Positions 775-48,396 of a stretch of DNA of 64,000 nt are shown here, in pieces; position 1 is the first letter of the stretch, and every line of letters begins with the position of its first letter. The stretch lies in assembly GCF_001465795.2 (NCBI RefSeq), contig NZ_CP013659.2, forward strand, positions 2,188,501-2,252,500, given 5' to 3'. The notes beneath the pieces are model-generated. The model was not told the DNA's origin and did no database searches. It saw nothing but the letters and a program-made list of their open reading frames with translations. The position numbers were made by a program, and so were the translations under genes. The DNA comes from Planococcus rifietoensis. Its GTDB lineage: Bacteria > Bacillota > Bacilli > Bacillales_A > Planococcaceae.

Positions 775-884
775 GAATTGTGTGATGCACAGGGACAAAA
801 TCTATCTGCTCAATTTTAAAAACCGCACCCCAACGCCTTTTCGGCACTGGTGATGCAGTTTGAATTGTGTGATGCACAGGGACA
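775..884 (+). repeat. Interspersed element, 64-bp spacer class (110 bp)
   Basis: Two direct 23-bp repeats lie at 775-797 and 862-884, both with loop triplet GAT. The 64-bp spacer carries a decayed hairpin (AAAACCGCACCCC at about 818-831, GGTGATGCAGTTT at about 849-861) with a TTTTC loop. The element ends 10 nt from the stop of the membrane-protein gene at 895, so its hairpin is the only visible terminator for that gene. Confidence 0.85.
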
Positions 885-894
885 AGCAAACCAC

Positions 895-1206
895 TCACGC
901 TGTCTGCTCCTCTTTTTTCCACCGGTAATAATTATATCCGGCGTCAAACAACACCGTTAACAAGAACACCAACGCCACAACCTGCAGCTGCGTCTCCGTA
1001 AAGACCTCCTGCTGATAAATAATGAAATACATCAGCAGCATAAATGGGATTCCCCATAACGCGCGAATAAATCTCCTTCTATAGGAAAGCCTTTGATAGA
1101 GCAGCACAAATCCTTTATCTTTTTTCTTCTTATCCTTCAAAAAGTATTTCATGACAAGATTCACCACGATCACTATGAGCAATGGAACGATTAAGTAGCC
1201 GAGCAT
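895..1206 (-). CDS. small membrane protein, unknown function
   Basis: This 103-residue protein has about three hydrophobic segments: LGYLIVPLLIVIVVNLVMKYF at the N terminus, WGIPFMLLMYFIIY in the middle and LQVVALVFLLTVLFDAGY near the end. A Lys-rich DKKKKDKG stretch separates the first two. I start it at the ATG before LGYL, preceded by AGAGGTGG. The open frame continues 17 codons upstream, but those codons (SLCKTQF) come from the interspersed repeat at 1234-1256 and are not genic. I do not recognise the family. It is flanked on both sides by repeat elements. Confidence 0.65.
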   Translation of the reverse strand: MLGYLIVPLLIVIVVNLVMKYFLKDKKKKDKGFVLLYQRLSYRRRFIRALWGIPFMLLMYFIIYQQEVFTETQLQVVALVFLLTVLFDAGYNYYRWKKEEQTA

Positions 1207-1233
1207 ATCGATGTTTTCCACCTCTTCTCTTAT

Positions 1234-1321
1234 AAATTGTGTCTTGCACAGGGACAACTGACTACCAAAACCCTTCTGCTACAACAATCCCACCTCTCGA
1301 ATTGTTTGACGCACAGGGGCA
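1234..1321 (+). repeat. Interspersed element, 42-bp spacer class (88 bp)
   Basis: Repeats lie at 1234-1256 (loop CTT) and 1299-1321 (divergent: TTGTTTGACGCACAGGGGCA), separated by exactly 42 bp. The right edge is only 3 nt from the stop codon of the 68-residue gene at 1325, and the left edge is 27 nt upstream of the start of the membrane-protein gene ending at 1206. The decay of the second copy suggests an old insertion. Confidence 0.85.
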
Positions 1322-1324
1322 AAA

Positions 1325-1531
1325 TCACCCCGCCCGCCGAACACCAAACACCAGTCCAGCCGCGCCGCCCATCACGGCTCCCAAGTATGCCGCAAGCTCA
1401 TACCCTTCGAGCCCGAGACGCTCATGAATGTCCAATCCGCCCAAAAACGTGCCGCCGATGACAAGTCCGAGAAAAGCGCCGGCCAACACCCCTGCGATCA
1501 ATCCGATCAGTCCAGCTGCAAGTTTCGACAT
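1325..1531 (-). CDS. small glycine-rich membrane protein, unknown
   Basis: A 68-residue protein (MSKLAAGLIG to VFGVRRAG). It has two glycine/alanine-rich transmembrane stretches (LIGLIAGVLAGAFLGLVIGG and LAAYLGAVMGGAAGLVFGV) joined by a short soluble loop, DIHERLGLEGYE. The start at 1531 is supported by AGGGAGG 9 nt upstream; the same frame stays open far upstream without sense. The glycine-zipper look is typical of small bacterial membrane proteins, but I cannot assign a function. Confidence 0.65.
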   Translation of the reverse strand: MSKLAAGLIGLIAGVLAGAFLGLVIGGTFLGGLDIHERLGLEGYELAAYLGAVMGGAAGLVFGVRRAG

Positions 1532-1709
1532 GTCCTGATTCCTCCCTTGCCATTTCACCCCATTTCCTAAGTTCTTCACTCGCCCACAAATTCCTCTTCG
1601 CCGAAACCATGACCTACGAATCAAACGAATCATACACATCAAAAATAGATAGAATATTCGAACTATTAGTTTTATACTAGAGATGAATGAAACAGAAAGG
1701 GAGGGTTCT

Positions 1710-2447
1710 ATGAAAAAGCTCATCAAAACCATTGTCATCGTACTGCTCGCCAGCTTGCTTGCATCGCCAAGTGTCTTTGCCAAGAGCGATAACGCCAAAG
1801 AATCGCTCGTCGCAGTCGGCGATTCGATTCCGTTCGGCTTTAACCTCGGCCAGACCAACCAAAATCCCGCGAAAACCTCTTATCCTTATTTAATCGGCAA
1901 GCTCGCGGATCTGCGCGTGCGCAACCTCGGCGTTCCCGGATGGCAGTCGGATCAACTGCTTGAAGCCTTGCAGACCGACCAGAAATACCGCCAAGCGATC
2001 ATCCACTCGGATTATGTCGCCGTGACGATCGGCAATAACGATTTGCTCGCCATCCTGCGTGAAGCGGCGGCCGAAAGCGGCGGCGATCAAGTTTTGTTCC
2101 AGCAGTTGCTCGGCGCGAAACTTAACGAAAGCGACGTCTTTTCGAACATCCAGCAAATCATCACGGAAATCCGTTCCCTCACCGATTCGCCGGTCGTGCT
2201 TTATAATGTCTATAACCCATTCCAGCTGACCGACACGCTCCACTACGCCGCCGATGCCGTCCTTCCAACCATCAATACTGCCTTTACGGCTCTCGCTCTC
2301 ACCAACCAAGATGTCTTTCTAGCGGATGCCTACACGGCCTTCGGAAACAATCAAGCAGAATACGTCCTGCCGGCAGACATCCATCCGACCAAAGCCGGAC
2401 AAGCGAAACTCGCAGAAATCGGCTTAGGAGCACTCGGCCTCTACTAA
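1710..2447 (+). CDS. secreted SGNH/GDSL-family esterase-lipase
   Basis: A 245-residue hydrolase with a signal peptide (MKKLIKTIVIVLLASLLASPSVFA). The SGNH blocks are in order: block I VAVGDSIPFGF with the nucleophile Ser, block III TIGNNDLL, and block V DIHPTKAGQ with the catalytic Asp and His. I chose the ATG at 1710 because AAAGGGAGGG precedes it; the frame is open 9 codons further up. It probably deacylates or de-esterifies lipids or wall polymers outside the cell. It is a monocistronic plus-strand gene ended by the terminator at 2462-2489. Confidence 0.88.
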   Translation: MKKLIKTIVIVLLASLLASPSVFAKSDNAKESLVAVGDSIPFGFNLGQTNQNPAKTSYPYLIGKLADLRVRNLGVPGWQSDQLLEALQTDQKYRQAIIHSDYVAVTIGNNDLLAILREAAAESGGDQVLFQQLLGAKLNESDVFSNIQQIITEIRSLTDSPVVLYNVYNPFQLTDTLHYAADAVLPTINTAFTALALTNQDVFLADAYTAFGNNQAEYVLPADIHPTKAGQAKLAEIGLGALGLY

Positions 2448-2461
2448 GCGCATAAACCTTA

Positions 2462-2489
2462 AAAGCTGCCTCTTTTGGCAGCTTTTTTT
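2462..2489 (+). terminator. intrinsic terminator of the SGNH gene
   Basis: AAAAGCTGCC-tctttt-GGCAGC is followed by eight T. The T tract runs into TTGCGTTGAATTG, the start of the next repeat element; the same TTTGCGTT linker precedes the element at 19394. Confidence 0.9.
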
Positions 2490-2495
2490 TGCGTT

Positions 2496-2605
2496 GAATT
2501 GTGTGGTGCACAGGGACAACCGCACACTCCGCGAATCAAAAAACCGCATTCCCCCGCCTTTTCGGCGGTGGGGATGCGGTTAGAATTGTGTGATGCACAG
2601 GGACA
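2496..2605 (+). repeat. Interspersed element, 64-bp spacer class (110 bp)
   Basis: Repeats lie at 2496-2518 (loop GGT) and 2583-2605 (loop GAT). The 64-bp spacer ends in a strong hairpin at 2541-2581: AACCGCATTCCC pairs with GGGGATGCGGTT around CGCC-ttttc-GGCG. The hairpin lies just past the stop (2614) of the wall-protein gene, so it likely serves as that gene's terminator. The element fills the gap between two convergent genes. Confidence 0.92.
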
Positions 2606-2613
2606 ATACCGTA

Positions 2614-5154
2614 TCAGTCTTCCAATTCTTCATCCAATAGATCTTTTACCTTATCCGACACCGCTCCGGTTCCGCCGAAAATGGTGAAATCATCGTAGTT
2701 CGGCAATAGTTTGTCGGTCGCTTGCGGAATTTCATCCGGGCGGACGAGCAGGATCGGCGAGTCGTTTTTCGCTGCCAAGACAGAGCCCGTTAGTGCATCG
2801 GGGAAATCTCTGCCGGTGGCAATATACGCCCGCTCAGTGCCGGTCATGAGCCTCGTGGCAATTTCAGCGCCGGTTTCATAACGCGTTTCGCCGCCGTAGC
2901 GCGTCGGATCCGGCAATTCATTGAAGACGTCTTCGCTGACAACGCCGGTTTCACCAATGACATGCGTGGATGAGTAATCATCCAATGCTTGTTCCGTCTC
3001 CGCTGGCAATCGGTCTTCACGCGTCAGCAAGATCGGCACGCCGTTTTTCGCAGCGTACGGAGAAGCAGACAAGACATCCGGGAAGTTCAAGCCATTCGCG
3101 ACGACTGCGCTATCGGATTCCAGCTCTTCTGCAATCAAAGTCGCTGTTTCAAAGCGCGTGTCCCCGCCGATGCGGTCGATGGTCAAGTCCATGCTTCTCA
3201 ATTCCGCTTCTACATTTGCTGAAATCGCGCCTGTGCTTCCGAGGAGAATGACTTTCTCCGCGCCGAGACGCTCAATTTCTTTTTCCGTTTCAATGCCCAA
3301 ACGGTCAGGTCTCGTTAGCAGGATCGGTGCATCTTCCTGGAAGGCCAGCGGGCCGCCTGCAAGTGCATCCGGGAAGTTGCGCGACGTGGCTAGCACGACT
3401 GTATCTGATGCATCCCATCCTTGTTGCGAAATGGCAATCGCTGTCAAGTAGCGGTCAGACCCCGCAATCCGGTCGGTCACTTCCGCGTCGACTTTGACGA
3501 CCGTCGTGGTCGCTTCGTCACTTTCATTCCCCGCGTTATCAATCGCAATCGCCGTCAGCACTGTGCCGCCATCTTGTGCGTCAATCGGCAAAGTGAACGC
3601 CCCGTCACTGCCGGCTTCTCCTCTCGCCAATTCTTCAGAGCCGGCCCAAATGACGACCGTGCTTCCCGCTTCACCCGTTCCGCTGACGCTTGTCGATTTG
3701 TTGGTCACTTGATCGAGCACCGGCGCATCTGGTGCGGTCACGTCTTCCACAGTCATGACGGTCTCATCGCTTGCGTTGCCGTCTTCGTCTTCCAACACCA
3801 CCGTGATGTCCGTGCCAGCTTCTTGCTCCGGAATTTCCACAGCGAAGTTGCCGTCTTCATCCACCTCGCCTGTATACGATCCGTCTGGCGTCGTGACGAT
3901 GACTTCTGCCCCCGGCTCACCGGATCCTGTCACTTCTGTGTCACCTTCTTCTACATCATCGACATCCGGCGCATCCGGTGCGATGGTATCTTCAACGGTA
4001 ATGACGACAGCTTCACTTGTCAGCCCTGCGTCATCTGTCAAAAAGACGCCGAGTTCCGTGCCGCCCGGCTGTTCTGGAATGTCCACTTCAAAATTGCCGG
4101 ATCCGTCCACCGTGCCGCTGCCAATCACTTCATCCTCTTTGGTCACCGTCACTTCCGTTCCCGGCTCACCGGTTCCCGTGACGGATGTATCGCGGTCGGT
4201 CACGCCGTCCACATCCGGCGTTTCAGGTGCGGTCACATCGCTCACCGTCACTTCCAACGCTTCGCCTTCAGGATCGCCTGACGAAGAGTATGCTTGGACC
4301 GTCAGCACTGTCCCCGCTTGTTGCTGAGGAATCTCAACGGAATATGGGCTATTGGCATCGCTGTCGACCGTGCCGCTGCCGATTTCTTCATCGCCGTTAA
4401 ATACCCGGATTTCCGTTGCGGAGCCTTGCTTCTTGATTCCTTCGACCACGGTATCCTGATCCGTCACCGTGCCGACGGACAAATCGGTATTCTCCAAATT
4501 ATACAAGGAAGCTTGAGCCCCTTCATCCGTCAGCACGAACACATCCACTAGAGGAGAAGATGTCACAGCTCCGAAGAACTCCAGTTCACCCGAATCGCTC
4601 ACCGGCAAGTCTTCGCCGAGTGCATTCAAATCAATCACCAACTCCGCGCTCAACGTCGACGCGACGCTCACATTAAGCGCCTCAAAGCTTGACCCCGAAA
4701 CAAGCCCTGTGGATGGGTCGACTTCCAAATCATCCCCGCTGATCGTGCCACTGTTCACAGGAATCAACCCCAGCAAGAGCCGCTGTTCGTACTCGATCTG
4801 CGCTGCGTCCTGGAAATTCGGCAGCGCTAAAATCTCCTGGAATGCTTCCGGGAGCTGGAAATTATAATATTGTTCATTGAGCGCTCCGACATTCAACAAC
4901 ACTTCCCCGTCAATGTCCAAAGTCAACACGCCGGTCGTCGAATTATAATCCGCCCGCAAGCCTTGGTCTTCAAGCAAGGCAATATCCGCCAGTCCCGCCG
5001 CTTGTGCGGAGTTTTGTTGAAGCGAAATGCCGTTTTTGCCGGTACTGAGTTCTGCCGAAAGCGGCGACACCGCCAGCACGCCCGCCATCAGTGCCACCGA
5101 AAATAGTTTGGAGCTGCCATTTAACGTTAATCTCTTTCCAGAATAACTCTTCAT
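2614..5154 (-). CDS. surface protein with Ig-like repeats and three CWB2 wall-binding repeats
   Basis: An 846-residue exported protein. A signal peptide (about residues 1-34, ending SPLSA) is followed by a unique N-terminal region to about residue 235. Next come four Ig-like repeats of about 80 residues, each with the pattern D-T-x-V-x-G-T/S-G-E-P-G and a closing IPEQ-x-x-G-T, up to about residue 555. The C terminus has three cell-wall-binding (CWB2) repeats marked by RIAGSDRYLTA, RIGGDTRFETA and RYGGETRYETG, each followed by FPDAL/FPDVL and an ILLTR/ILLVR strand. GAGGAGGAA precedes the start. It is probably held on the wall by secondary polymers as in other CWB2 proteins. Acidic composition is marked. 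The ligand is unknown. Confidence 0.9.
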   Translation of the reverse strand: MKSYSGKRLTLNGSSKLFSVALMAGVLAVSPLSAELSTGKNGISLQQNSAQAAGLADIALLEDQGLRADYNSTTGVLTLDIDGEVLLNVGALNEQYYNFQLPEAFQEILALPNFQDAAQIEYEQRLLLGLIPVNSGTISGDDLEVDPSTGLVSGSSFEALNVSVASTLSAELVIDLNALGEDLPVSDSGELEFFGAVTSSPLVDVFVLTDEGAQASLYNLENTDLSVGTVTDQDTVVEGIKKQGSATEIRVFNGDEEIGSGTVDSDANSPYSVEIPQQQAGTVLTVQAYSSSGDPEGEALEVTVSDVTAPETPDVDGVTDRDTSVTGTGEPGTEVTVTKEDEVIGSGTVDGSGNFEVDIPEQPGGTELGVFLTDDAGLTSEAVVITVEDTIAPDAPDVDDVEEGDTEVTGSGEPGAEVIVTTPDGSYTGEVDEDGNFAVEIPEQEAGTDITVVLEDEDGNASDETVMTVEDVTAPDAPVLDQVTNKSTSVSGTGEAGSTVVIWAGSEELARGEAGSDGAFTLPIDAQDGGTVLTAIAIDNAGNESDEATTTVVKVDAEVTDRIAGSDRYLTAIAISQQGWDASDTVVLATSRNFPDALAGGPLAFQEDAPILLTRPDRLGIETEKEIERLGAEKVILLGSTGAISANVEAELRSMDLTIDRIGGDTRFETATLIAEELESDSAVVANGLNFPDVLSASPYAAKNGVPILLTREDRLPAETEQALDDYSSTHVIGETGVVSEDVFNELPDPTRYGGETRYETGAEIATRLMTGTERAYIATGRDFPDALTGSVLAAKNDSPILLVRPDEIPQATDKLLPNYDDFTIFGGTGAVSDKVKDLLDEELED

Positions 5155-5516
5155 TCATCTTCCTCCTCTTTTTTGGTTAGCCAAAAATCAAGTTATGGGT
5201 GAACGAGTAAATTATTTCCTTTTTAAATTAACGCCTCCTTTTTTTACTATATTTAACATAAGGCATTAATAACTAAATATTAACACATCTCCTCTTATCC
5301 GCAATTGATAACCGAAGCGCTACCCATGCGTAAGTGGTGACAATTTCATTTGACAGGAAAATAAGATAGAATTTTCAATTAATAATTATTACTAGAAGCG
5401 CAAATAAACATCAAAGCAAAATGAAATCCAGTTCATAAGTTTGTAGCATTTGAAAAATTTGACACTCAATAGTAAAATTAACCATTTTTTTATCATCGCT
5501 CTGTCATGTATGGCTA
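5155..5516. other. AT-rich intergenic region upstream of the wall-protein gene
   Basis: No open frame with a ribosome site is visible here. The stretch is strongly AT-rich and must hold the promoter of the 846-residue wall-protein gene (minus) near its left end and that of the aldo/keto reductase gene (plus) near its right end. I see no unambiguous -35/-10 pair. Confidence 0.5.
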
Positions 5517-5604
5517 AAATTGTGTGGTGCACAGGGACAACCAGACACTCAAATCCCTCCAAACCAACAATCTCTTCATTTAAATTGTGCCGTGCACAGG
5601 GATA
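5517..5604 (+). repeat. Interspersed element, 42-bp spacer class (88 bp)
   Basis: Repeats lie at 5517-5539 (loop GGT) and 5582-5604 (TGTGCCGTGCACA, with GGATA replacing GGACA). In the second copy the stem pair becomes C-G instead of the T-G found elsewhere. This locus is not next to a minus-strand stop codon: it lies about 80 nt upstream of the aldo/keto reductase start. Confidence 0.85.
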
Positions 5605-5685
5605 CAAACAAAAAAAGCTTAGACCCTCTAACTTCAGGGTATTCTATAAATTGTTGTGATAAAAACACGAAAAGGAGAATGTCCC

Positions 5686-6510
5686 GTGAACTATGTAACA
5701 TTAAACAATAAACTCGAAATGCCCCAATTAGGATTCGGTGTTTGGCAAGTCGACAGCGACCAAGCTGCCGAAGCCGTATCAACTGCATTAAAAACTGGCT
5801 ATACCTCTATCGATACAGCCATGATCTATAAAAACGAAGAAGGCGTCGGAAAAGCCTTGAAAGAAACTTCCGTCCCGCGTGAAGAGTTGTTTATCACTAC
5901 AAAAGTCTGGAACTCTGACCAAGGCTACGACAGCACTTTGCGCGCATTTGACGAAAGCCTTGAGCGCCTCGGCCTTGATTATGTGGACCTCTACCTCATC
6001 CACTGGCCAACGCCTGAGTTCGACAATTACGTCGAGACGTATAAAGCGATGGAAAAACTATACAAAGACGGCCGCGTCAAAGCGATCGGCGTCTGCAATT
6101 TCCAACCTGAACATCTACAACGCTTGTTGGACGAGTGCGACGTGCCGCCTGTCCTCAACCAAATCGAATGCCATCCATACTTGGCGCAAAATGACGTCAA
6201 AGAATTCTGTGCGCAGCACGATATTTTCGTGGAAGCGTGGAGCCCGCTTGACCAAGGCGGCGAAGTACTGAAAGACGAAGTGATTCAACAAATCGCTGAA
6301 GCACACAAAAAATCCCCAGCTCAAATCGTCTTGCGCTGGCACCTGCAAAACAACACGATCGTCATTCCGAAATCCGTCACACCGTCACGCATCGAAGAAA
6401 ACTTCAACGTCTTCGATTTCGAATTAAGCGAAGAGGACATGAACCAAATCAACGGGTTGGACAAAAACCGCCGCAAAGGCGCTCACCCGAACGAAATGAA
6501 CGTCCGTTAA
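5686..6510 (+). CDS. aldo/keto reductase
   Basis: A 274-residue NADPH-type aldo/keto reductase (AKR5-like). The catalytic tetrad is visible: Asp in SIDTAMIY, Tyr in AMIYKNEEGVG, Lys in ITTKVWN and His in LIHWPTP. IPKSVTPSRIEEN is the cofactor-phosphate loop. I chose the GTG at 5686 because AAAGGAG lies 8 nt upstream and the paralogue at 25418 starts similarly (V-T-L-N-N). It likely reduces small aldehydes or ketones in the cytosol; proximity to hxlAB may hint at reactive-aldehyde stress, but that is inference. The gene is monocistronic with its own terminator. Confidence 0.9.
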   Translation: MNYVTLNNKLEMPQLGFGVWQVDSDQAAEAVSTALKTGYTSIDTAMIYKNEEGVGKALKETSVPREELFITTKVWNSDQGYDSTLRAFDESLERLGLDYVDLYLIHWPTPEFDNYVETYKAMEKLYKDGRVKAIGVCNFQPEHLQRLLDECDVPPVLNQIECHPYLAQNDVKEFCAQHDIFVEAWSPLDQGGEVLKDEVIQQIAEAHKKSPAQIVLRWHLQNNTIVIPKSVTPSRIEENFNVFDFELSEEDMNQINGLDKNRRKGAHPNEMNVR

Positions 6511-6522
6511 TATCTCCATAAG

Positions 6523-6557: not shown

Positions 6558-6562
6558 TGCTT

Positions 6563-6650
6563 AAATTGTGTGGTGCACAGGGACAAATGAACATACAAAT
6601 GCTGCCGCAGCAGGATTTCCGGCCCGCGAATTGTGTGGTGCACAGGGACA
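6563..6650 (+). repeat. Interspersed element, 42-bp spacer class (88 bp)
   Basis: Repeats lie at 6563-6585 and 6628-6650, both with loop GGT. The spacer contains GCTGCCGCAGCAGG and GATTTCCGGCCCG, matching the spacers at 9437 and 17930. It ends 7 nt from the stop codon of the minus-strand HxlR gene. Confidence 0.9.
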
Positions 6651-6657
6651 GCACCAA

Positions 6658-9413: not shown

Positions 9414-9501
9414 GAATTGTGTGTCGCACAGGGACGAACAGACAGTCAAATGCCGCCGCGACGGGAATCCGGCCCGTCAAATTGTGTGGTGCACAGGGAC
9501 A
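9414..9501 (+). repeat. Interspersed element, 42-bp spacer class (88 bp)
   Basis: Repeats lie at 9414-9436 (loop CGC, ending GGACG) and 9479-9501 (loop GGT). The 42-bp spacer holds TCAAATGCCGCCGCGACGG, a good representative of the class. Another element begins 20 bp further on, giving a four-repeat array. Confidence 0.9.
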
Positions 9502-9521: not shown

Positions 9522-9631
9522 GAATTGTGTGGTGCACAGGGACGCAAACCACCATCCGCAACACAAAAACCGCATCCCGGCGCCGTTTCGGCCACCGGGA
9601 TGCGGTTGGAATTGTGTGGTGCACAGGGACA
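9522..9631 (+). repeat. Interspersed element, 64-bp spacer class (110 bp)
   Basis: Repeats lie at 9522-9544 and 9609-9631, both with loop GGT. The spacer carries the best-preserved hairpin of the class at about 9565-9607: AACCGCATCCCGG pairs with CCGGGATGCGGTT. The element ends 19 nt from the mtlD stop, so the hairpin probably terminates the mannitol transcript. Confidence 0.92.
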
Positions 9632-15545: not shown

Positions 15546-15632
15546 AAATTTGTCGTGCACAGGGACGAACCAAGAGCGAAATCCTGCTGCGACGCGAATC
15601 TGATGCGCCAAACTGTGTGATGCACAGGGACA
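15546..15632 (+). repeat. Interspersed element, 42-bp spacer class (first of tandem pair)
   Basis: Repeats lie at 15546-15567 (one base short: AAATTTGTCGTGCACAGGG) and 15610-15632 (AAACTGTGTGATGCACAGGG). The 42-bp spacer contains AAATCCTGCTGCGACGCG. It sits between the divergent mtlA and ptsH promoters, one of three loci not adjacent to a minus-strand stop codon. Confidence 0.85.
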
Positions 15633-15669: not shown

Positions 15670-15757
15670 AAATTGTGTCGCGCACAGGGACAAACTACCA
15701 TCAAAACCCCGACACGACGCGGTTTTCACGTCCCGAATTGTGCCGTGCACAGGGACA
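15670..15757 (+). repeat. Interspersed element, 42-bp spacer class (second of tandem pair)
   Basis: Repeats lie at 15670-15692 (loop CGC) and 15735-15757 (TGTGCCGTGCACA). The spacer contains ACGACGCGGTTTTCACG. Only 37 bp separate it from the previous element, making an array of four repeats over 212 bp upstream of ptsH. Confidence 0.87.
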
Positions 15758-17907: not shown

Positions 17908-17994
17908 AATTGTGTGGTGCACAGGGACAACCAAGAATCAGAATCCCGCTGCGACGCGGATTTTCCGCCGCGAATTGTGTGATGCACAGGGACA
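17907..17994 (+). repeat. Interspersed element, 42-bp spacer class (88 bp)
   Basis: Repeats lie at 17907-17929 (loop GGT) and 17972-17994 (loop GAT). The spacer, AATCCCGCTGCGACGCGG then TTTTCCGCCGCG, itself can fold. The element starts inside the T tract of the ptsI terminator and ends 2 nt from the stop of a small minus-strand gene. Confidence 0.92.
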
Positions 17995-19393: not shown

Positions 19394-19481
19394 AAATTGT
19401 GTAGCGCACAGGGACACCCAAGCAGCAGAATCCCGCCGCTATGGGAATCGCACACCCGAAATTGTGTCATGCACAGGGACA
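19394..19481 (+). repeat. Interspersed element, 42-bp spacer class (88 bp)
   Basis: Repeats lie at 19394-19416 (loop AGC) and 19459-19481 (loop CAT). The linker to the terminator reads TTTTTGCGTTAAATTG, matching the one at 2484-2500. The element ends 12 nt from the symporter stop. Confidence 0.9.
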
Positions 19482-23878: not shown

Positions 23879-24496
23879 TTATCCAAACAACTTCAATAAC
23901 TCCCCAAACTCCTCAATCACATAATCATATTCATCCACGTCCCCAAACCCATACGCCGCATAGACAAACGGGAGCCCAGCCATTTTCGCTGCCTCATGGT
24001 CGCCTTTCGTATCGCCGACATACACGGCCTTCGCCACATCGTTGCGCTCCATGATCAGCTGGATGTTTTTGCCCTTCGACAAGCCCGTCCTCCCCGGATT
24101 CTCGAAATCGGTGAAATGCTTGTCCAGCGCATGGTACTCATAGAAGCTTTCGATATAGCCTTCCTGGCAATTACTGACGATGTACAACTTGTATTTCTGT
24201 GACAGCCGCTCCGACACATCCTCCACGCCGGCGTACAATTCCCCGCCTTGTTGCCGCAAATGCACGCATTCCAGTTCCGAGGATTCTTCCGTCAGCTTTT
24301 CGCACTTTTCTTTTGAGAGATGCGGAAACAGCTTCTCCCCGACTTGATCCGCCTGCAGCCCCATAATGCCGCGCAAATCGTCTTTTGTCAGTTGCTCATC
24401 GACGCCGTTATCGGCCAATACCTTATTCCACACCGCAACCGACACCTCGAGCGGATTCCAAAGCGTGCCGTCCAAATCAAAAATGATGCTATCCAT
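23879..24496 (-). CDS. HAD-family hydrolase (tandem paralogue 1)
   Basis: A 205-residue phosphatase of the PGP/beta-PGM-like subfamily. Motif I is DSIIFDLDGTLWN, motif II IVSNCQEGY, motif III Lys in GLSKGKNI, and motif IV VYVGDTKGDHEAAKMAGLPFVYAAYGFG. A helical cap domain spans about 15-80. The ATG at 24496 has GGAAGG upstream; the open frame continues into the repeat element at 24542 and that part is not genic. It is a tandem duplicate of the gene at 24677 with the same length and closely similar sequence throughout. Confidence 0.9.
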   Translation of the reverse strand: MDSIIFDLDGTLWNPLEVSVAVWNKVLADNGVDEQLTKDDLRGIMGLQADQVGEKLFPHLSKEKCEKLTEESSELECVHLRQQGGELYAGVEDVSERLSQKYKLYIVSNCQEGYIESFYEYHALDKHFTDFENPGRTGLSKGKNIQLIMERNDVAKAVYVGDTKGDHEAAKMAGLPFVYAAYGFGDVDEYDYVIEEFGELLKLFG

Positions 24497-24541
24497 ATGT
24501 ATATCTTCCTTCCCTCTGTGTTTTCTCCAGTTTACCTCAAC

Positions 24542-24629
24542 AAATTGTGTCATGCACAGGGACGCAAACCGGACCAAATCCCGTTCTATCAATCTTTTTC
24601 ACCCGTGAATTGTGTGATGCACAGGGACA
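24542..24629 (+). repeat. Interspersed element, 42-bp spacer class (88 bp)
   Basis: Repeats lie at 24542-24564 (loop CAT) and 24607-24629 (loop GAT). It lies between the two duplicated HAD genes, on the far side of the terminator at 24635 as seen from the upstream gene, so here the order stop-terminator-element differs from the usual stop-element-terminator. Confidence 0.9.
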
Positions 24630-24634
24630 CTAAA

Positions 24635-24674
24635 GAAAAACCGGAACTCTCCCCCATACGAGAATTCCGGCTTC
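24635..24674 (-). terminator. intrinsic terminator of HAD paralogue 2
   Basis: AACCGGAACTCTC...GAGAATTCCGG stem directly after the stop codon. On the minus strand it ends in TTTTTCTTTA. Confidence 0.82.
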
Positions 24675-24676
24675 TG

Positions 24677-25294
24677 TTATCCAAACAAGTTCAATAATTC
24701 CTTAAACTCGTCAATCACGTAATCAAACTCATCCACGTCCCCAAACCCATACGCCGCATAGACGAACGGGAGACCCGCCTCTTTTGCTGCTTTGTGGTCG
24801 CCTTTCGTATCGCCCACATAAACCGCGCGCTCCACATTGTTTCGCTCCATGACCAATTGGATGTTCTCGCCTTTTGATAAGCCCGTTCTCCCCGGGTTCT
24901 CAAAATCGACGAAATGCTCGTCTAGTTTGTGGTACGCATAAAAACTTTCGATATAACCGTCCTGGCAATTGCTGACGATGTACAAATTGTATTTCTGCGA
25001 GAGCTGTTCGAGTACATGCTCCACATCATCGAACAACTGCCCGCCCCGTTTTCTCACGTACGCACTTTCCAGCTCCGACGACAGTTCTTCAAATTTCCGG
25101 TGCTGTTCGTCCGATAAATGAGGAAACAGCTTCTCCCTGATTTCATGCGCCTGCAGCCCCATGACGCCGCGCACGTCCTCTTTCGTTAACGTTTTCTCCG
25201 CGCCGCTTTCCTCTAGAGCTTCGTTCCAAGCCTCCAAAACGGTATCCAGCGAATCCCATAATGTTCCGTCCAAATCAAAAATGATGCTGTCCAT
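24677..25294 (-). CDS. HAD-family hydrolase (tandem paralogue 2)
   Basis: A 205-residue HAD phosphatase with the same motifs as its neighbour: DSIIFDLDGTLWDS, IVSNCQDGY, GLSKGENI and VYVGDTKGDHKAAKEAGLPFVYAAYGFG. It differs mainly in the cap (LDTVLEAWNEALEESGAEKTL). The ATG at 25294 has AAAGGAGT upstream. Identical length and order of motifs indicate a local duplication. GDTKGD rather than a PGM-type motif suggests a phosphoglycolate-phosphatase-like or nucleotidase-like activity; the substrate is unknown. Confidence 0.9.
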   Translation of the reverse strand: MDSIIFDLDGTLWDSLDTVLEAWNEALEESGAEKTLTKEDVRGVMGLQAHEIREKLFPHLSDEQHRKFEELSSELESAYVRKRGGQLFDDVEHVLEQLSQKYNLYIVSNCQDGYIESFYAYHKLDEHFVDFENPGRTGLSKGENIQLVMERNNVERAVYVGDTKGDHKAAKEAGLPFVYAAYGFGDVDEFDYVIDEFKELLNLFG

Positions 25295-25370
25295 ATATAT
25301 AACTCCTTTCAATTAAAATATTACTGTTTCTTATAAAGTAACCAACAAGAATATAAACCATTCTACATTA

Positions 25371-36372: not shown

Positions 36373-36470
36373 GAATTGTGTCATGCACAGGGACAAAGTC
36401 AGCCGAATATACCAACAAATCCCTACCCGACAGCTTTTCTGTTGTCAGAATAGTTCCGTGCACAGGGACA
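36373..36470 (+). repeat. Interspersed element, 52-bp spacer class (98 bp)
   Basis: Repeats lie at 36373-36395 (loop CAT) and 36448-36470 (variant GAATAGTTCCGTGCACAGGG). The 52-bp spacer ends in GACAGCTTTTCTGTTGTC. The element at 41801 has the same spacer length, the same variant second repeat and the same following CACTAAC. It ends 24 nt from the pdxA2 stop. Confidence 0.9.
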
Positions 36471-41800: not shown

Positions 41801-41898
41801 GAATTGTGTCGTGCACAGGGACAAAAACGCTCAAACTTCTCAAAAAATCCCCACCCAACAGCATTTCCGTTGTTAGAATAGTTCCGTGCACAGGGACA
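41801..41898 (+). repeat. Interspersed element, 52-bp spacer class (98 bp)
   Basis: Repeats lie at 41801-41823 (loop CGT) and 41876-41898 (variant GAATAGTTCCGTGCACAGGG). The spacer ends in AACAGCATTTCCGTTGTT, homologous to that at 36396-36447. The element ends 21 nt from the SIS-gene stop. Confidence 0.9.
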
Positions 41899-42654: not shown

Positions 42655-42676
42655 TCGTCCACCTCAACTCACTGTC

Positions 42677-42946
42677 TTACGCTTTCCCTAGCCCTTCCGC
42701 TACGATCAGTTCTTCCACTTTGGCCATAAGGGATTCTTCATCGCTGCCATCGGCTGTGATTTTGATGGTGTGGCCTTTTGAGACACCGAGTGACATGACG
42801 CCCATAATGGACTTCAAGTTTACTTCTCTTTCTTTATAGAGCATTTTGACATCTGCAGAAAACGGCGACACCGCTCCTACTAATTTCGAAGCTGGTCGTG
42901 CGTGAAGCCCTTCGTCGCTGATGATGGTATACGTTTTTTCAATCAT
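42677..42946 (-). CDS. second HPr-family phosphocarrier protein
   Basis: An 89-residue HPr paralogue. Both regulatory sites are present: His in EGLHARPASKLVG and Ser in LKSIMGVMSLGVSKG. The sequence otherwise diverges from PtsH at 15894. AGGAG lies 8 nt before the ATG at 42946. Because the catalytic His is retained it is not a Crh-type protein, which lacks it. Its place between nagR and the SIS gene suggests dedicated service to GlcNAc uptake. Confidence 0.9.
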   Translation of the reverse strand: MIEKTYTIISDEGLHARPASKLVGAVSPFSADVKMLYKEREVNLKSIMGVMSLGVSKGHTIKITADGSDEESLMAKVEELIVAEGLGKA

Positions 42947-42965
42947 GTTCATTTCTCCTTTGCGC

Positions 42966-43688
42966 TTACCGCTGAATTTCGGTCGTGAATTTATAACGGT
43001 CGGCCCGGTATGTGCTGCGGACCACTTCAAATGGCAAGTCGCCTTCTAGAAAGCTGATGCGTTCAATCATCAAGATCGCTGCGGGCGGTTGGATCTGCAG
43101 CAAATCGGCATCATCTTTCTTTACCAGTCCTGCTTCCATGCGCTGCGTCGCGTGGCTGATTTTCAGCTGCTGCTTGTTCTCGATGACCGCATACAGCGAG
43201 CCTTGGAACGACTCTTCTGTCAGATTCGGAAAGCGTTTAACCGGCAAAAAGGTGCGTTCGATGGCCATTGGCTTGTCGTCCGCAAAACGAATGCGCTCGA
43301 CAAAATACACTTGGTCGCCATCGTCCAGCTGCAACTCGTGTGCAACGTCGGTTTCCGGCTCCAGGATTTCAAATCCGATCAGCTTGCTGCTGGGCACCAT
43401 GCCGCGCGACTCCATGTCTTCCGTAAAGCTGGTCAAGCCATTGAGCGGCTGCTCCACCTTTGGAGAGGCCACGAACGTGCCGCGCCCTTTTTCCCGGTAC
43501 AACAAGCCGTCATTGACCAAATTGGTGATCGACTGGCGCACCGTCATGCGGCTGACCGCGAAGCGTTCGGACAGTTCGCGTTCGGATGGAATCGACGTGC
43601 CAACGGAAAAGTCGCCTTGCTGAATTTGCTGCTTCAGCTGTTCTTCTATTTGAATGTAAATGGGAATCGGCGATTGTTTGTCCAGCAC
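42966..43688 (-). CDS. nagR: GntR/HutC-family regulator of N-acetylglucosamine genes
   Basis: A 240-residue regulator. GntR winged helix at the N terminus (LDKQSPIPIYIQIEEQLKQQ, SERELSERFAVSRMTVRQSI), then a UTRA effector domain (LTSFTEDMESRGMVPSSKLIGF to YRADRYKF). It resembles NagR/YvoA, which binds GlcN-6-P or GlcNAc-6-P. I favour the GTG at 43688, 8 nt after AAGGAG; upstream in-frame starts overlap nagB. A matching dre-like operator lies upstream of nagE (47625). Confidence 0.92.
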   Translation of the reverse strand: MLDKQSPIPIYIQIEEQLKQQIQQGDFSVGTSIPSERELSERFAVSRMTVRQSITNLVNDGLLYREKGRGTFVASPKVEQPLNGLTSFTEDMESRGMVPSSKLIGFEILEPETDVAHELQLDDGDQVYFVERIRFADDKPMAIERTFLPVKRFPNLTEESFQGSLYAVIENKQQLKISHATQRMEAGLVKKDDADLLQIQPPAAILMIERISFLEGDLPFEVVRSTYRADRYKFTTEIQR

Positions 43689-43693
43689 AGCCA

Positions 43694-44434
43694 TCACTCC
43701 TTTTCTGCCGCTGCCAGGCTATAGGCTTCCTTGTCTACTATGAGTGTAACATGCGGATGCTTCCATAAAAACGACACCGGAAAATCTTCGCTGACCCCGC
43801 CAGCCAAAAACCGTTTCACTGCCGGTGCTTTCTTTTTGCCGGAAGCCAGCACCAAGATTTGTTCACTTTTTAGAATCGACTGAATGCCCATCGTAATGGC
43901 GTGCGTCGGCACACTATTCAGGTCGCTGAAAAACCGCGCATTGCTCTTGCGGGTCGATTCTTCTAGTTTCACGCAATGAGTCACACTCGCTTCAGGTGTA
44001 CCGGGCTCGTTAAAGCCAATATGGCCGTTTGTCCCGAGTCCGAGAATTTGCAGATGCGGCGGGCCGATTCTGTCAATCAAGGCCTCATAGCGCCGGCATT
44101 CGTCTTCTACCGGAGAAGCTGTACCGTCTGGAATATGCGTGTTGTCTAGTTGAATATCGATGTGCTGGAATAGGTGCTCATTCATAAAATAGCGGTAGCT
44201 GTTCGGATGAGCTGCTGAAAGTCCGCAGTATTCATCCAAGCTGATCGTTTGAACTTGCTTGTAAGAGATATTGCGTTCTTGGACGCCGCGAATTAATTGC
44301 TCGTAAAGGCCGAGCGGCGTCGATCCGGTGGCAAGTCCAAGTACCGAACGGCTGTTGTCCAGAATCTGCTGTTCCACTAACCTTGCCGCGCTGCTGCTCA
44401 TCTCTTCGTAGTTTTCGACTCGTATCAGTTTCAT
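43694..44434 (-). CDS. nagB: glucosamine-6-phosphate deaminase
   Basis: A 246-residue enzyme that converts glucosamine 6-phosphate to fructose 6-phosphate and ammonia. Landmarks are LGLATGSTPLGLYEQL, SLDEYCGLSAAHPNSY (catalytic Asp), LGLGTNGHIGFNEPG (Asn-Gly-His) and the lid with VTLIVDKEAYSL. The ATG at 44434 has GGAAGGA 9 nt upstream. It follows nagA by 5 nt and precedes nagR. Confidence 0.95.
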   Translation of the reverse strand: MKLIRVENYEEMSSSAARLVEQQILDNSRSVLGLATGSTPLGLYEQLIRGVQERNISYKQVQTISLDEYCGLSAAHPNSYRYFMNEHLFQHIDIQLDNTHIPDGTASPVEDECRRYEALIDRIGPPHLQILGLGTNGHIGFNEPGTPEASVTHCVKLEESTRKSNARFFSDLNSVPTHAITMGIQSILKSEQILVLASGKKKAPAVKRFLAGGVSEDFPVSFLWKHPHVTLIVDKEAYSLAAAEKE

Positions 44435-44439
44435 CACAG

Positions 44440-45600
44440 TCATTCCTTCCTGTAGGCGATTGTTCCTCTGCAAATGGTCAATTGAACGTTCAAATTGTCA
44501 TCTAAAATGGCGATATCCGCATCCGCACCGCTACAGACTTTGCCTTTATTGGCTAATCCCAATTCGTTTGCGGCATTGGCGGACGTCATGGCCACCAATT
44601 CATTTACGCTGCAGCCGGTGATAGACTGCACATTCTGAATCGCTCTGTCCATCGTCAAGATGCTGCCAGCTAAGGTTCCATCCGCAAGCCGTGCGTCTTT
44701 TTTCGTCACCTGCACATCCTGTCCGCCTAAATCATAGACACCTGGGGGCAAGCCTTTTGCGCGCATGGCATCGGTAATCAATATTAAGCGCTCGGCTCCT
44801 TTTTGCCGAAACGCCATTTCGACGGAAGCGGGATGGCTGTGAATGAAATCGGCAATGAGTTCGACCATCAAGCCATCTTCCATCAACGCCGCACCCACAA
44901 CACCCGGCTTGCGATGATGGAACGGGCTCATTTGGTTATAGAGATGCGTCACGTGGTTCGCGCCGGAACGAACGGCTGCCTGTACTTCCTCAAAAGTGGC
45001 ATCGGAATGGCCGATGGAGGCAATGACCTTATCCTCCGTCAGTTTTTTGATAAACTCCATGGCGCCCCGGGTTTCTGGCGCTAAAGTAACCAAACGGATC
45101 TGGTTGCCGCTCTTTTTTTGCCATTCGCGAAATAAGGGATACGACGCTTCGACGATATGTTCAATCGGCTGCGCCCCTGCACGTTCAGCAGAAATAAACG
45201 GTCCTTCCAAATGAACGCCGAGCATCTCCGCCTGCCCTTCACTAGCATGAAACTCACAGATATTTTCCAGCGCTGCTGAAATGGCCTCATCCGATTGCGT
45301 CATCGTGGTCGCGAGAAAACTGGTCGTTCCTTCTTTCGGCAAAGCTTCCGCTAAGCCAGCCAAGTCTTCTGGCGTCGCGTCCATCGAATCGTGCCCTGCC
45401 GCGCCGTGAATATGGACGTCGATAAATCCAGGAAACGCAGTCCAGTTTTTACCGCTTGCTTCTATATGAATGTCAGCTGGCACTTCAATCTTTTCGGCCA
45501 CGCGGCTTATTTTGCCGTCTTCGATGAGGATATCCCCGATAACACTTTCTTCCACCGCATCTGCAATGGTGATGCCCGAAATCAATAGGCTGTTCTTCAC
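44440..45600 (-). CDS. nagA: N-acetylglucosamine-6-phosphate deacetylase
   Basis: A 386-residue amidohydrolase that removes acetate from GlcNAc-6-phosphate. Metal and active-site motifs are GFIDVHIHGAAGHDSMDA, VHLEGPFIS, ASIGHSDATFEE, THLYNQMSPFHHRKPG and LITDAMRAKG. The start is a GTG at 45600 with AAGGAGGAA upstream. It is downstream of nagE, separated by a terminator-like hairpin, and overlaps no gene. Confidence 0.95.
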   Translation of the reverse strand: MKNSLLISGITIADAVEESVIGDILIEDGKISRVAEKIEVPADIHIEASGKNWTAFPGFIDVHIHGAAGHDSMDATPEDLAGLAEALPKEGTTSFLATTMTQSDEAISAALENICEFHASEGQAEMLGVHLEGPFISAERAGAQPIEHIVEASYPLFREWQKKSGNQIRLVTLAPETRGAMEFIKKLTEDKVIASIGHSDATFEEVQAAVRSGANHVTHLYNQMSPFHHRKPGVVGAALMEDGLMVELIADFIHSHPASVEMAFRQKGAERLILITDAMRAKGLPPGVYDLGGQDVQVTKKDARLADGTLAGSILTMDRAIQNVQSITGCSVNELVAMTSANAANELGLANKGKVCSGADADIAILDDNLNVQLTICRGTIAYRKE

Positions 45601-45617
45601 GTTGATTCCTCCTTAGG

Positions 45618-45654
45618 AAAAACCAGGAGAATCACGATGGATGTCCTGGCTTTT
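45618..45654 (-). terminator. terminator-like hairpin between nagE and nagA
   Basis: On the minus strand AAAAGCCAGGA-(14 nt)-TCCTGGTTTTT lies right after the nagE stop and ends at the nagA ribosome site. It should partly uncouple transporter and enzyme expression. Confidence 0.78.
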
Positions 45655-45662
45655 CTGTTTTT

Positions 45663-47576
45663 CTATTCAATTTTCATAATGGAATGGGTTCCTTGTGGTT
45701 GATCGCCATCTTTCAAGATGATGACTTTTTGGTCTGTCAGGTTGGTGAAAATGACTGGTGTCGCAAGTGATGGTGCATTGGCGTCCAAGAATTTCAAGTC
45801 AAGCTTCAGCAATTTGTCGCCGCGCTGGACGAGCTGTCCTTGTTCAACGAATAGCTCAAAACCTTCGCCATCCAGTTTGACGGTATCCAAACCGACGTGA
45901 ATCAAGATTTCAATGCCGGTATCGGTCTCGATGCCGATCGCGTGCTTCGTCGGGAAGACGCTGACGACACGCCCGTCCACTGGTGAATAAAGCACATCTC
46001 CAGTTGGCATAATGGCAAATCCAGGCCCCATCATTTCTTTGGCAAAAACGTCATCCGGCACTTCTGACAGCGAAATGATTTTCCCGTCGATCGGCATTTC
46101 AAAATCTTTCGGGATGATTTCTTTCATGGCCGGTTCCTCATTCGACGTATCTTCAACCGCTGCAGTTTCCGTACCCGCCTCAGGAGCCGGGTTGCCGTTT
46201 GCGACACGCGGTTTCATCGCATCTCCTAAGAATTCCACAGCCGTTCCGATAACGACTTGCACATTCGTCTTGTTAATTTTCATAACGCCCATGGCACCGT
46301 GGCGTTTCAAGGCTTTTTCGTCTACGAGATCTGCATCTTTCAAGGTCATGCGCAGACGCGTTGTGCAATACTCGGTCGCGACAATATTATCCGCACCGCC
46401 CAAAGCTTCAATCGTGTTATAGGCTCTTACATCAATTGCGTTATTGCCTGAAGCTGCATTGTCTGCATCCTCGTCTTCGTCTTCACGGCCAGGTGTTTTC
46501 AGGTCCAGTTTGACAATCAAGAAATAGAAGATGAAGAAGTAAATGACGCCGAACACGAGTCCCATGACCAATAAAATGAGCGGGTTGGTCGCGAGCCCGA
46601 AATTCAGCACATAGTCAATCGCTCCGGCAGAAAAGCCGAAACCGTGATGGATATCCAAGGCGTACGCGACCATCATCGACACGCCCGTTAGTAAGGCATG
46701 GACGACATACAACACAGGCGACAAGAACATGAACGTAAACTCAATCGGTTCTGTGATCCCTGTCAAGAATGATGTGAAGCCGATACTGAAGAACATCCCG
46801 CCAACCAGTGCTTTGCGTTCTTTTTTTGCTGCCGCGTACATCGCAAGACAAGCAGCCGGCAAACCGAACATCATGATCGGGAAGAAGCCAGACAGGAATG
46901 GTCCTGCCGTTGGGTCGCCCCGCAAGAAGCGGTTAATTTCTCCGCGCACCACTTCTCCACTAGCAGTCGTGAACGTTCCGAAATCAAACCAGACAATCGT
47001 GTTGATGACGTGGTGAAGGCCAGTCGGCAACAACAGACGGTTTAAGAAACCGTAAGCACCAACGCCAAACATCCCCGCATTCAAGATCCAGTTGCCGGCA
47101 CCGTCAATAAGATCCTGGATCGGAGGCCAGGCAACACCGAGTACACCAGCCAAAATGGTCATGGCGGCTGCGGTGATAATCGGCACAAAGCGCCTGCCAC
47201 CGAAAAAGGCCAGCCATTGCGGAAATTTCACATTATAGAATTTATTGTACAAGAGACCTGCGACAATTCCGGAGATAATCCCGGCAAAGACGCCCATATC
47301 AATCGTCTCGTTAATTGTGACAATCGCGGAAGTTAACACCAGATACGCAATCGCACCGGCCAATGCCGCTCCCCCGCTGCCATCATGTGCAAGCCCCATC
47401 GCAATCCCGATGGCAAAGATGATCGCCAAGTTATCGATAATCCCCGCGCCCGCCGCCGACATGAACGGAATCCCAAGCAAATCATCCTGTCCAAAACGCA
47501 GCAGCAAAGCAGCCGCAGGCAATGTCGCAATCGGGAACATCAACGACTTCCCTATTTTCTGCAGAAAACCAAACAT
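45663..47576 (-). CDS. nagE: PTS N-acetylglucosamine transporter subunit IICBA
   Basis: A 637-residue fused permease. EIIC (about 1-370) starts MFGFLQKIGKSLMFPIATLPAAALLLRFG and carries LTGITEPIEFTFMFLSP. EIIB (about 390-460) has the phospho-Cys in VATEYCTTRLRMTLKD. EIIA (about 490-637) has IEILIHVGLDTVKLDG with the phospho-His. GGGGTGG precedes the ATG. It imports and phosphorylates GlcNAc, feeding nagA and nagB. It heads the nag genes and has a NagR-type operator in its promoter. Confidence 0.95.
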   Translation of the reverse strand: MFGFLQKIGKSLMFPIATLPAAALLLRFGQDDLLGIPFMSAAGAGIIDNLAIIFAIGIAMGLAHDGSGGAALAGAIAYLVLTSAIVTINETIDMGVFAGIISGIVAGLLYNKFYNVKFPQWLAFFGGRRFVPIITAAAMTILAGVLGVAWPPIQDLIDGAGNWILNAGMFGVGAYGFLNRLLLPTGLHHVINTIVWFDFGTFTTASGEVVRGEINRFLRGDPTAGPFLSGFFPIMMFGLPAACLAMYAAAKKERKALVGGMFFSIGFTSFLTGITEPIEFTFMFLSPVLYVVHALLTGVSMMVAYALDIHHGFGFSAGAIDYVLNFGLATNPLILLVMGLVFGVIYFFIFYFLIVKLDLKTPGREDEDEDADNAASGNNAIDVRAYNTIEALGGADNIVATEYCTTRLRMTLKDADLVDEKALKRHGAMGVMKINKTNVQVVIGTAVEFLGDAMKPRVANGNPAPEAGTETAAVEDTSNEEPAMKEIIPKDFEMPIDGKIISLSEVPDDVFAKEMMGPGFAIMPTGDVLYSPVDGRVVSVFPTKHAIGIETDTGIEILIHVGLDTVKLDGEGFELFVEQGQLVQRGDKLLKLDLKFLDANAPSLATPVIFTNLTDQKVIILKDGDQPQGTHSIMKIE

Positions 47577-47610
47577 AAAATTTCCACCCCTTTATGTATT
47601 CTTAATTTTC

Positions 47611-47646
47611 ACTATAGCCGTAACATGTATAGTTGTCTATACCAAT
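47611..47646 (-). promoter_or_regulatory. nagE promoter with NagR/dre-type operator
   Basis: On the minus strand TAGACA (47634-47639) and TATAGT (47611-47616) are spaced by 17 bp. The dyad GTATAGTTGTCTATAC (47627-47642) covers the -35 and matches the known ATTGGTATAGACAAC-type site of YvoA/NagR regulators. A weaker cre-like AGTAAGCGGTTACT lies at 47667-47680. Confidence 0.82.
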
Positions 47647-47896
47647 TTCATAAATAATAAAAATAAAGTAAGCGGTTACTGAATGACATAGCAGTTATGT
47701 ATGTGAAGAAGTATTCCCGTAAGAATCACTCTCGCCAAAATCGCTAGCATCTGTTCTTTTACCAATTGCCCGCCTACCGATGAAGCGAAAATCTTTTAAC
47801 CCTTGTGAATTTCGGGTAGACAACAATTGAAGCCAGGCATGCTTATATATGAAGAAACAGAATCCAACAATGTTTTGTAAGGAGGTGCATCCACTC

Positions 47897-48196
47897 ATGA
47901 CACAAAAAGATGAAAATAATCGTTCGGAAATTGATATTAGTTCAAAAAACCATGAACTCTTTATTCGCAACCGCTATAAGTTTTACTACAATATAAACGA
48001 TGTGCTGATCGCCGTTTGGTTTATAATCGGCAGTATTTTGTTCTTTTGGAAGGAAACCGAAACGATAGCGATTTGGTTTTTCCTCTTGGGAAGCATCGAG
48101 CTGTTAGTTCGACCACTGATGCGGATATTCAGCGAAGTTCACTTGAAGAATATTCGATCAGGAAAAGCTGGGTCCGGAGAAGATACCCGTCGATGA
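47897..48196 (+). CDS. YrhK-like small membrane protein
   Basis: A 99-residue protein with two membrane spans (VLIAVWFIIGSILFFW and TIAIWFFLLGSIELLVRPL). The YrhK-domain pattern is present: F-x-x-NRYKFYYNINDVL and an end of RIFSEVHLKNI. AAGGAGGTG lies 10 nt before the ATG at 47897. It is an isolated plus-strand gene. The function of the family is unknown. Confidence 0.78.
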   Translation: MTQKDENNRSEIDISSKNHELFIRNRYKFYYNINDVLIAVWFIIGSILFFWKETETIAIWFFLLGSIELLVRPLMRIFSEVHLKNIRSGKAGSGEDTRR

Positions 48197-48260
48197 ACAG
48201 TTGTCACAGGTGAATTTTTTAGAATGCTACTTGTTTCACATCGTATTGTTGTTTGAAATC

Positions 48261-48304
48261 AAAAAAGAAGCCAGCAATCGGTTGAACCGACTGCTGGCTT
48301 CTTT
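48261..48304. terminator. bidirectional terminator between convergent genes
   Basis: AAAAAAGAAGCCAGCAATCG-(loop)-CGACTGCTGGCTTCTTT. Its stem is similar to the terminator at 36329 although the neighbouring genes are unrelated. It abuts the repeat element at 48309. Confidence 0.9.
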
Positions 48305-48308
48305 GCTT

Positions 48309-48396
48309 ATATTGTGTCACGCACAGGGACAAAACCACACTCAAATCCCCAGATAAAGGCTTTTCCTACCCGGAAATTGTGTGGTGCACAGGGACA
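48309..48396 (+). repeat. Interspersed element, 42-bp spacer class (88 bp), rightmost copy
   Basis: Repeats lie at 48309-48331 (loop CAC) and 48374-48396 (loop GGT). The spacer starts ACCACACTCAAATCCCC. It ends 10 nt from the stop of the ABC permease gene. No further copy occurs in the remaining 15.6 kb. Confidence 0.9.

Follow-up and report, generated by a model that had tools for sequence, protein, structure and literature searches.

What kind of element occurs again and again, as pairs of short repeats between unrelated genes, in a stretch of the Planococcus rifietoensis chromosome, and what keeps it there? The stretch (the window hereafter) is 64,000 nt long and corresponds to C1:2188501-2252500 of a single 3,505,011-bp contig (genome G000; other genomes are denoted in the same way). 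A first-pass annotation of the window had described 30 copies of a repeat at 13 intergenic loci, forming 15 two-copy elements of no named family, and had held that their conservation demands spread by mobility or strong selection. Our analysis suggests that they are probably non-autonomous elements of the repetitive extragenic palindromic (REP) type, belonging to the system of a REP-associated tyrosine transposase (RAYT), a single-strand HUH/Y1 transposase. Three points go beyond that annotation: the single orientation of the copies, their confinement to two chromosomal domains and the presence of a RAYT gene just outside the window.

A total of 30 matches to the core TTGTGTNNYGCACAGGGAC were found in the window at up to three mismatches, all on the plus strand, compared with a mean of 0.15 and a maximum of one in 100 shuffles at the same threshold. 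The copies form 15 head-to-tail, same-strand pairs at 13 loci spanning positions 776 to 48396, and the spacing within pairs is 65 bp (ten pairs), 87 bp (three pairs) or 75 bp (two pairs). None of the 15 elements lies inside a gene according to a codon-usage gene caller written for this analysis, a crude tool that overlooked the RAYT gene itself; unlike its gene calls, some mechanical open reading frames extend into elements. The copy, locus and element counts of the first-pass annotation, and the intergenic location as judged by this caller, were thus reproduced.

Analysis of the whole chromosome revealed 84 matches at up to three mismatches. All 77 matches with zero to two mismatches fall in one of two clusters, which rules out a genome-wide family. 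Among the seven matches with three mismatches, two are window copies and five lie outside both clusters, a number close to chance level given that the backward control of the core has seven matches in all. The two clusters hold 79 copies in about 5% of the chromosome. The family is, as first described, a multi-copy family of two-copy interspersed elements. The first-pass annotation would have been weakened by very few copies elsewhere in the genome, and a second cluster was found instead. The clusters and the elements of the window are as follows.

Cluster 1: C1:345557-451922.
Cluster 2, the cluster of the window: C1:2169147-2236895.
Element 1: 776..884, plus strand, direct repeat with spacing 87 bp.
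Element 2: 1235..1321, plus strand, direct repeat with spacing 65 bp, second copy degenerate.
Element 3: 2497..2605, plus strand, spacing 87 bp, between convergent genes, behind a hairpin with a T-run and separated by 7 bp from the stop called for a CWB2 protein gene.
Element 4: 5518..5604, plus strand, spacing 65 bp.
Element 5: 6564..6650, plus strand, spacing 65 bp, behind a terminator-like hairpin.
Element 6: 9415..9501, plus strand, spacing 65 bp, first of a tandem of two.
Element 7: 9523..9631, plus strand, spacing 87 bp, forming a strong hairpin at its centre (z -3.74, folded as DNA).
Element 8: 15546..15632, plus strand, spacing 65 bp, first of a tandem of two; a single element occupies the site in G015.
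Element 9: 15671..15757, plus strand, spacing 65 bp.
Element 10: 17908..17994, plus strand, spacing 65 bp, terminator-like hairpin directly before it.
Element 11: 19395..19481, plus strand, spacing 65 bp, behind a terminator-like hairpin and separated by 11 bp from the stop called for a Na:alanine symporter gene.
Element 12: 24543..24629, plus strand, spacing 65 bp, between two tandem paralogues.
Element 13: 36374..36470, plus strand, spacing 75 bp, behind a terminator-like hairpin and separated by 23 bp from the stop called for a pdxA-like gene.
Element 14: 41802..41898, plus strand, spacing 75 bp, behind a terminator-like hairpin.
Element 15: 48310..48396, plus strand, spacing 65 bp, behind a terminator-like hairpin; final copy of cluster 2.

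A search of the genome with Y1_Tnp (PF01797) identified one gene, with the match at C1:2169474-2169809 inside a reading frame of 201 amino acids (aa) at the edge of cluster 2, 18.5 kb before the window; the RAYT gene itself spans C1:2169444-2170046. The protein passes the NCBIfam model NF047646 (REP-associated tyrosine transposase) with 83.5 bits against a cut-off of 80, and it scores 63.7 against PF01797, as befits a Y1 HUH transposase. It also matches over residues 10-142 the solved chain PDB 4er8 (E 4.6e-4), which is labelled TnpArep and which we take to be the E. coli protein, and on the IS200 TnpA equivalog model it reaches 26 bits, below the cut-off of 55. Reading of the translation by eye found the motifs NHYH (HYH) and YIHRNP. 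HuH plus Y---NP is given as the motif signature in PMC6006769, with Y---NP for class 2, and the YIHRNP motif fits this class 2 signature. Repeats are present on both sides of the RAYT gene in all 12 genomes with a RAYT at least 80% identical, and all eight named relatives with a best-segment identity of at least 80% are labelled Planococcus. One further Y1 gene (a 137-aa frame) occurs elsewhere in each of G019 and G014. The RAYT copies L048, L050 and L059 (of G042, G040 and G021, respectively) carry an in-frame stop, which hints that RAYT may be decaying in some species. A Chryseomicrobium RAYT with 48% identity (L124:9031-11945) is ringed by GGTGCCTGTCACC palindromes, some of them arranged as direct pairs.

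Comparison of 46 genomes of the genus, which takes up the search among related Planococcaceae proposed in the first-pass annotation, revealed at least one copy of the core at up to one mismatch in 18 genomes, at least 19 copies in 13 and zero copies in 28. A RAYT of at least 80% identity is present in 11 of the 13 genomes with at least 19 copies and in one of the 33 others (G035, four copies), an association between copy number and RAYT lineage with a Fisher p of 6.6e-8, uncorrected for relatedness. Where the best RAYT shows 64-72% identity, as in the sister RAYT clade, the core is not matched, except once in G009. P. maitriensis (G014) has both RAYT lineages, 38 kb apart, and was counted with the first, and G004, G006 and G013 are examples with neither a core nor a RAYT match. 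Genomes of the sister RAYT clade show variant cores, such as ATTGTTTCGCTCACAGGGGCGCG in G045, and inverted pairs of these variant cores, about 110-135 bp apart, were found in seven of the 12 sister-clade genomes of the RAYT tree; the remaining five scored none. The inverted pairs lie beside or near RAYT in G014 (second copy), G021, G022, G029, G038 and G045, and in cluster 1 in G008. The tree supports the sister clade as a single group; its rows with direct pairs do not resolve into one clade, and either arrangement, direct or inverted, may have come first. Other repeats were seen in two of these genomes: the unrelated GACAGGACGTCGCGGTGC in G045 (C1:2566093-2659599 and 186303), another locally concentrated family in the genus with eight of 11 copies within 16 kb, and AAAAGTTCATGTAA in G008 (C1:2620997-2685184), some copies of which are arrayed about 21 bp apart.

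The anatomy of the repeat was analyzed in 301 copies from four genomes, chosen by similarity to the core so that conservation is partly by construction; TTGTG...CACAGGG[A/G]C is almost invariant among them. On the opposite strand the unit reads GTCCC and then TGTGY-NNN-RCACA, resembling a REP whose tag is other than GT[AG]G, and the tag position on this sense strand is GTCCC, or GCCCC in some copies. The TGTGY/RCACA palindrome around three nucleotides is present in the copies, with weak folding and without support from covariation. The last stem pair is T-G in 232 copies, T-A in 35, C-G in 24 and C-A in 10. In eight cluster regions of four genomes, same-strand neighbours are spaced by 65 bp (99 cases), 75-77 bp (10 cases) or 86-88 bp (29 cases), and in a minority of cases by other distances.

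Analysis of 146 elements, likewise chosen by core similarity and including orthologues that recur in the counts, revealed a fixed polarity. The end of a strong hairpin lies no more than 20 nt from the 5' side in 67 elements and from the 3' side in four; among control intergenic points, 49 of 1230 have a hairpin this close. In 72 elements the 3' side is faced by a called stop codon no more than 30 nt away, and no element has one facing its 5' side at that distance. With respect to replication, the core strand opposes the leading strand in 57 of 79 cases in cluster 1 and 60 of 67 in cluster 2; between convergent genes, whose direction offers no guide, it does so in 32 of 39. At co-directional lagging-strand genes, where numbers are small, the core is opposite the gene in three cases and along it in seven. 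All 16 bins of the window have a negative GC skew, which fits a leading minus strand.

This polarity bears on the alternative that the elements are kept as structured parts of the mRNA 3' untranslated region, from stop codon to terminator, where they stabilise or trim the upstream transcript, RAYT being a past source only. The stop codon on one fixed side (72 of 146) and the hairpin on the other (67 of 146) agree with such a role, as does the occurrence of copies in a relative at 21 of 24 comparable loci. A known structured RNA family was, however, not found: the Rfam search, which covered 144 kb made up of the window and four 20-kb cluster stretches, gave no match above the gathering score. 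Among five DNA folds, only the one of the 87-bp type clearly beats shuffles (z -3.74), 28 of the 46 genus genomes lack the core at up to one mismatch, and a general role in mRNA would not lead one to expect elements in just 5% of the chromosome. We consider this alternative possible, on balance rather unlikely.

Among neighbouring genes, window 2614-5154 encodes a protein in which Big_6 and CWB2 cell-wall-binding stretches occur three times each and whose stop codon lies near element 3, and the tandem paralogues around element 12 (window 23879-25312) have 83% identical DNA over 300 bp. Cluster 2 stops 3.6 kb before a low-GC stretch at window 52001-64000 (0.27-0.34 vs 0.39-0.53 in the remaining window), which has no elements and carries polysaccharide genes for a pyruvyl transferase, glycosyl transferases, a Wzy-type ligase and a UDP-sugar dehydrogenase.

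The arrangement in two clusters recurs in the genus. Two copy groups, one of them containing RAYT, were found at zero or one mismatch in G001, G005, G014, G015, G019 and G041, a tally that leaves out G042, and in G000, G001, G014, G015, G019 and G041 all copies found of the RAYT group lie on one side of RAYT, save a pair just beyond the gene. G019 uses a variant core (the loop, then ACACAGGGAC), of which 51 copies were detected when its two clusters were scanned in relaxed form. When the core was relaxed and up to one mismatch allowed, copies at two places account for nine of 11 in G008, 10 of 11 in G011 and 15 of 16 in G045, compared with one, two and one matches for the respective backward controls. 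The dnaA gene of G000 is at 3188205, and clusters 1 and 2 therefore sit on opposite replication arms; in seven genomes the distance of the cluster midpoints from dnaA is 624-729 kb along one arm and 715-1015 kb along the other. Orthologues of cluster 1 genes of G000 surround the cluster 1 position in G008 (10 proteins over the cut-off) and G045 (five), and none of the called cluster 2 genes passed the orthology cut-off in G008, G045 or G023. In the sister clade, cluster 2 is thus matched by how far it lies from dnaA and not by demonstrated orthology.

Two readings make more of this placement. According to the first, the copies are helically phased protein-binding sites that organise two chromosomal domains. 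The spacings of 65, 75-77 and 86-88 bp (99, 10 and 29 cases) are steps of about one helical turn, and each of the seven placed genomes has one cluster per arm; lengthened central hairpins may, however, equally explain the steps, some genus genomes (G004, G006 and G013, for example) have no core or RAYT match, and the chance that two random sites fall on opposite arms and within 285 kb of the mirror position is 16%. This reading appears very improbable to us, and with the same 16% the mirror placement was rejected as proof of contact between the arms. The second reading is an extension of the RAYT explanation: the elements would be domain-locked, that is, kept in two segments, one per replication arm, through much of the history of the genus and through a change of core. 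We regard it as unlikely, and lowered our estimate because in the sister clade the second segment was not shown to be orthologous. If it were true, insertion would be limited by physical proximity, the RAYT-less cluster would have been seeded across facing arms, and repeat maps would record chromosome folding.

Gene blocks inside the clusters also differ between genomes. Counting indels with a long allele of at least 800 bp and a short allele below 450 bp, 12 of 32 clean events, a few of which share a breakpoint, are bounded by an element on each side and carry one in the short allele (null 6.85, standard deviation 2.25, p 0.024). This modest enrichment reads as occasional recombination at repeats. 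A rival explanation would make the elements recombination seams, loosely integron-like, where blocks are gained, lost or exchanged by crossing-over between same-oriented elements, through RecA or RAYT. The same 12 of 32 count agrees with seams, and by eye a terminator plus element is alike at both ends of events 26 and 23 and the elements are alike in event 13. Gene-gap tests, run in two versions, were nevertheless significant each time in only two of 12 ordered genome pairs, and control regions outside the clusters themselves had three, seven and two indels above 700 bp in aligned spans of about 33, 47 and 21 kb. A related operon occurs in cluster 1 of G001 and G015 and in cluster 2 of G000, but with 63-80% protein identity and dissimilar adjoining elements, and transfer of one operon between clusters is thus unsupported. 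Integron-like cassettes were demoted as the leading explanation after this stricter counting, and we consider the seam explanation doubtful.

The reading as REP-type elements of a RAYT system draws on features observed directly in these genomes: anatomy, RAYT linkage, clade-specific core, confinement, hairpin and stop polarity, and change in unit number. Several results weigh against it. A Y1 gene within cluster 1 was rejected, since a protein search of 46 genomes and a PF01797 search of 18 gave no placeable match there in G000, G001, G008, G015, G019 or G045. The drafts G016 and G028 have many copies and no RAYT match, and in G005 relaxed-core copies reach about 10 kb on the other side of RAYT, so that its edge position is not universal. 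The canonical GT[AG]G tag is absent, with GTCCC in its place; the mini-hairpin lacks covariation support, with 10 C-A pairs in 301 copies against about five expected under independence; and four of the five strands folded as DNA are not clearly better than shuffles. The conservation and polarity counts, in turn, mix orthologous copies from the four genomes in both the 301 copies and the 146 elements.

The comparison of occupied and empty sites, also proposed in the first-pass annotation, adds to these points. A comparable site in G001, G015 or G019 was available for 24 of the 33 loci of G000; 21 clearly hold copies in the relative, two are uninterpretable and one, 367998-368086, is unoccupied in G001. 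Because G015 and G019 do carry copies at this last site, the gap in G001 may be a loss; the site was withdrawn as proof of insertion, and no clear new insertion was pinned down among the 24. Element sites are mostly old. Unit number does vary between genomes, for example with five copies in G015 against two in G000. The proposed spread by mobility is not shown directly, since sites are shared at 21 of 24 loci and the lone empty one may be a loss. Because the unoccupied G001 site does not show insertion, we hold the RAYT reading to be probable and no stronger.

Under the RAYT explanation, the unit on the sense strand of the preceding gene would consist of the stop codon, a GTCCC tag and the mini-hairpin TGTGY-NNN-RCACA, a spacer able to form a central hairpin, a second GTCCC and mini-hairpin, and then often the terminator hairpin of the gene. 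The mini-hairpin would be what RAYT reads: the enzyme would recognise it, tagged, on single-stranded DNA, mostly on the lagging-strand template, would cut at two same-strand copies and would rejoin the piece beside another hairpin nearby, thereby moving the elements. Use of the lagging strand by Y1 transposases is described for IS200/IS605 in PMC6006769. If such a system acted locally, with insertions into genes being lost and repeat units gained and lost in tandem, it could produce two old, stable, strand-biased clusters and would account for the confinement.

The absence of a named family held in so far as no Rfam match was obtained over 144 kb and a literature search, conducted largely without subscription papers, found no description of the family. 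It did not hold in full: with a RAYT among the copies and repeats on both sides of it, the family belongs near the REP/RAYT class. A plasmid origin was also considered, and PLSDB gave no real match (one 27-bp piece, E 0.3); among viral contigs, one exact core occurs in one contig of 6,971 bp. Most REP families cover the whole genome, and the rule by which REPs spread is thereby obscured. In Planococcus, one RAYT lineage coincides across many species with a small element, a fixed polarity towards hairpins and stop codons and strict locality, and a sister lineage uses inverted pairs; together these make locality, target choice, strand use and the switch between direct and inverted pairs testable by comparison and with one purified protein.

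Comparison with known systems sets the family closest to REP/RAYT (the REPtrons of E. coli and Stenotrophomonas). Shared features are a gene of the RAYT-model Y1 HUH type flanked by short, multi-copy intergenic repeats, a different core with a different RAYT clade, and location near gene 3' ends, where REPs are described, sometimes in palindromes (PMC3733652). The same paper has most REP families spread genome-wide (PMC3733652), whereas the Planococcus copies, although many and intergenic, lie in two clusters of about 5% of the chromosome. The family further differs in having GTCCC and not GT[AG]G, in its same-strand dimers and in its Bacillota host; PMC6006769, which treats REP classes and tags, does not use the word 'Firmicutes' in its main text. 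Copies clustered at few loci are also a feature of GTAG-23 of T. roseum, described as lying in blocks (PMC3733652), and concentration near tnpAREP genes is shared with REPMa/REPMb of Marinomonas, where it is read as recent arrival (PMC8266576). Unlike the Marinomonas repeats, the Planococcus sites are common to several species and the second cluster is without RAYT.

REP doublets forming hairpins (REPINs) and bacterial interspersed mosaic elements (BIMEs), both inverted REP dimers, are alike in that two REP copies around a spacer make the unit, and the sister RAYT clade has inverted pairs; the window pairs, in contrast, are all head-to-tail (15 of 15 direct). IS200/IS605 ends and their derived miniature inverted-repeat transposable elements resemble the present elements in their two same-strand hairpins acted on by a Y1 transposase, as in IS608, a role that RAYT would have in Planococcus; the Planococcus protein, in contrast, has 26 bits on the IS200 model with its cut-off of 55. 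Overall, the family is best read as a variant of REP/RAYT elements, new in its GTCCC tag, its same-strand dimers (65, 75-77 and 86-88 bp) and its confinement to two domains.

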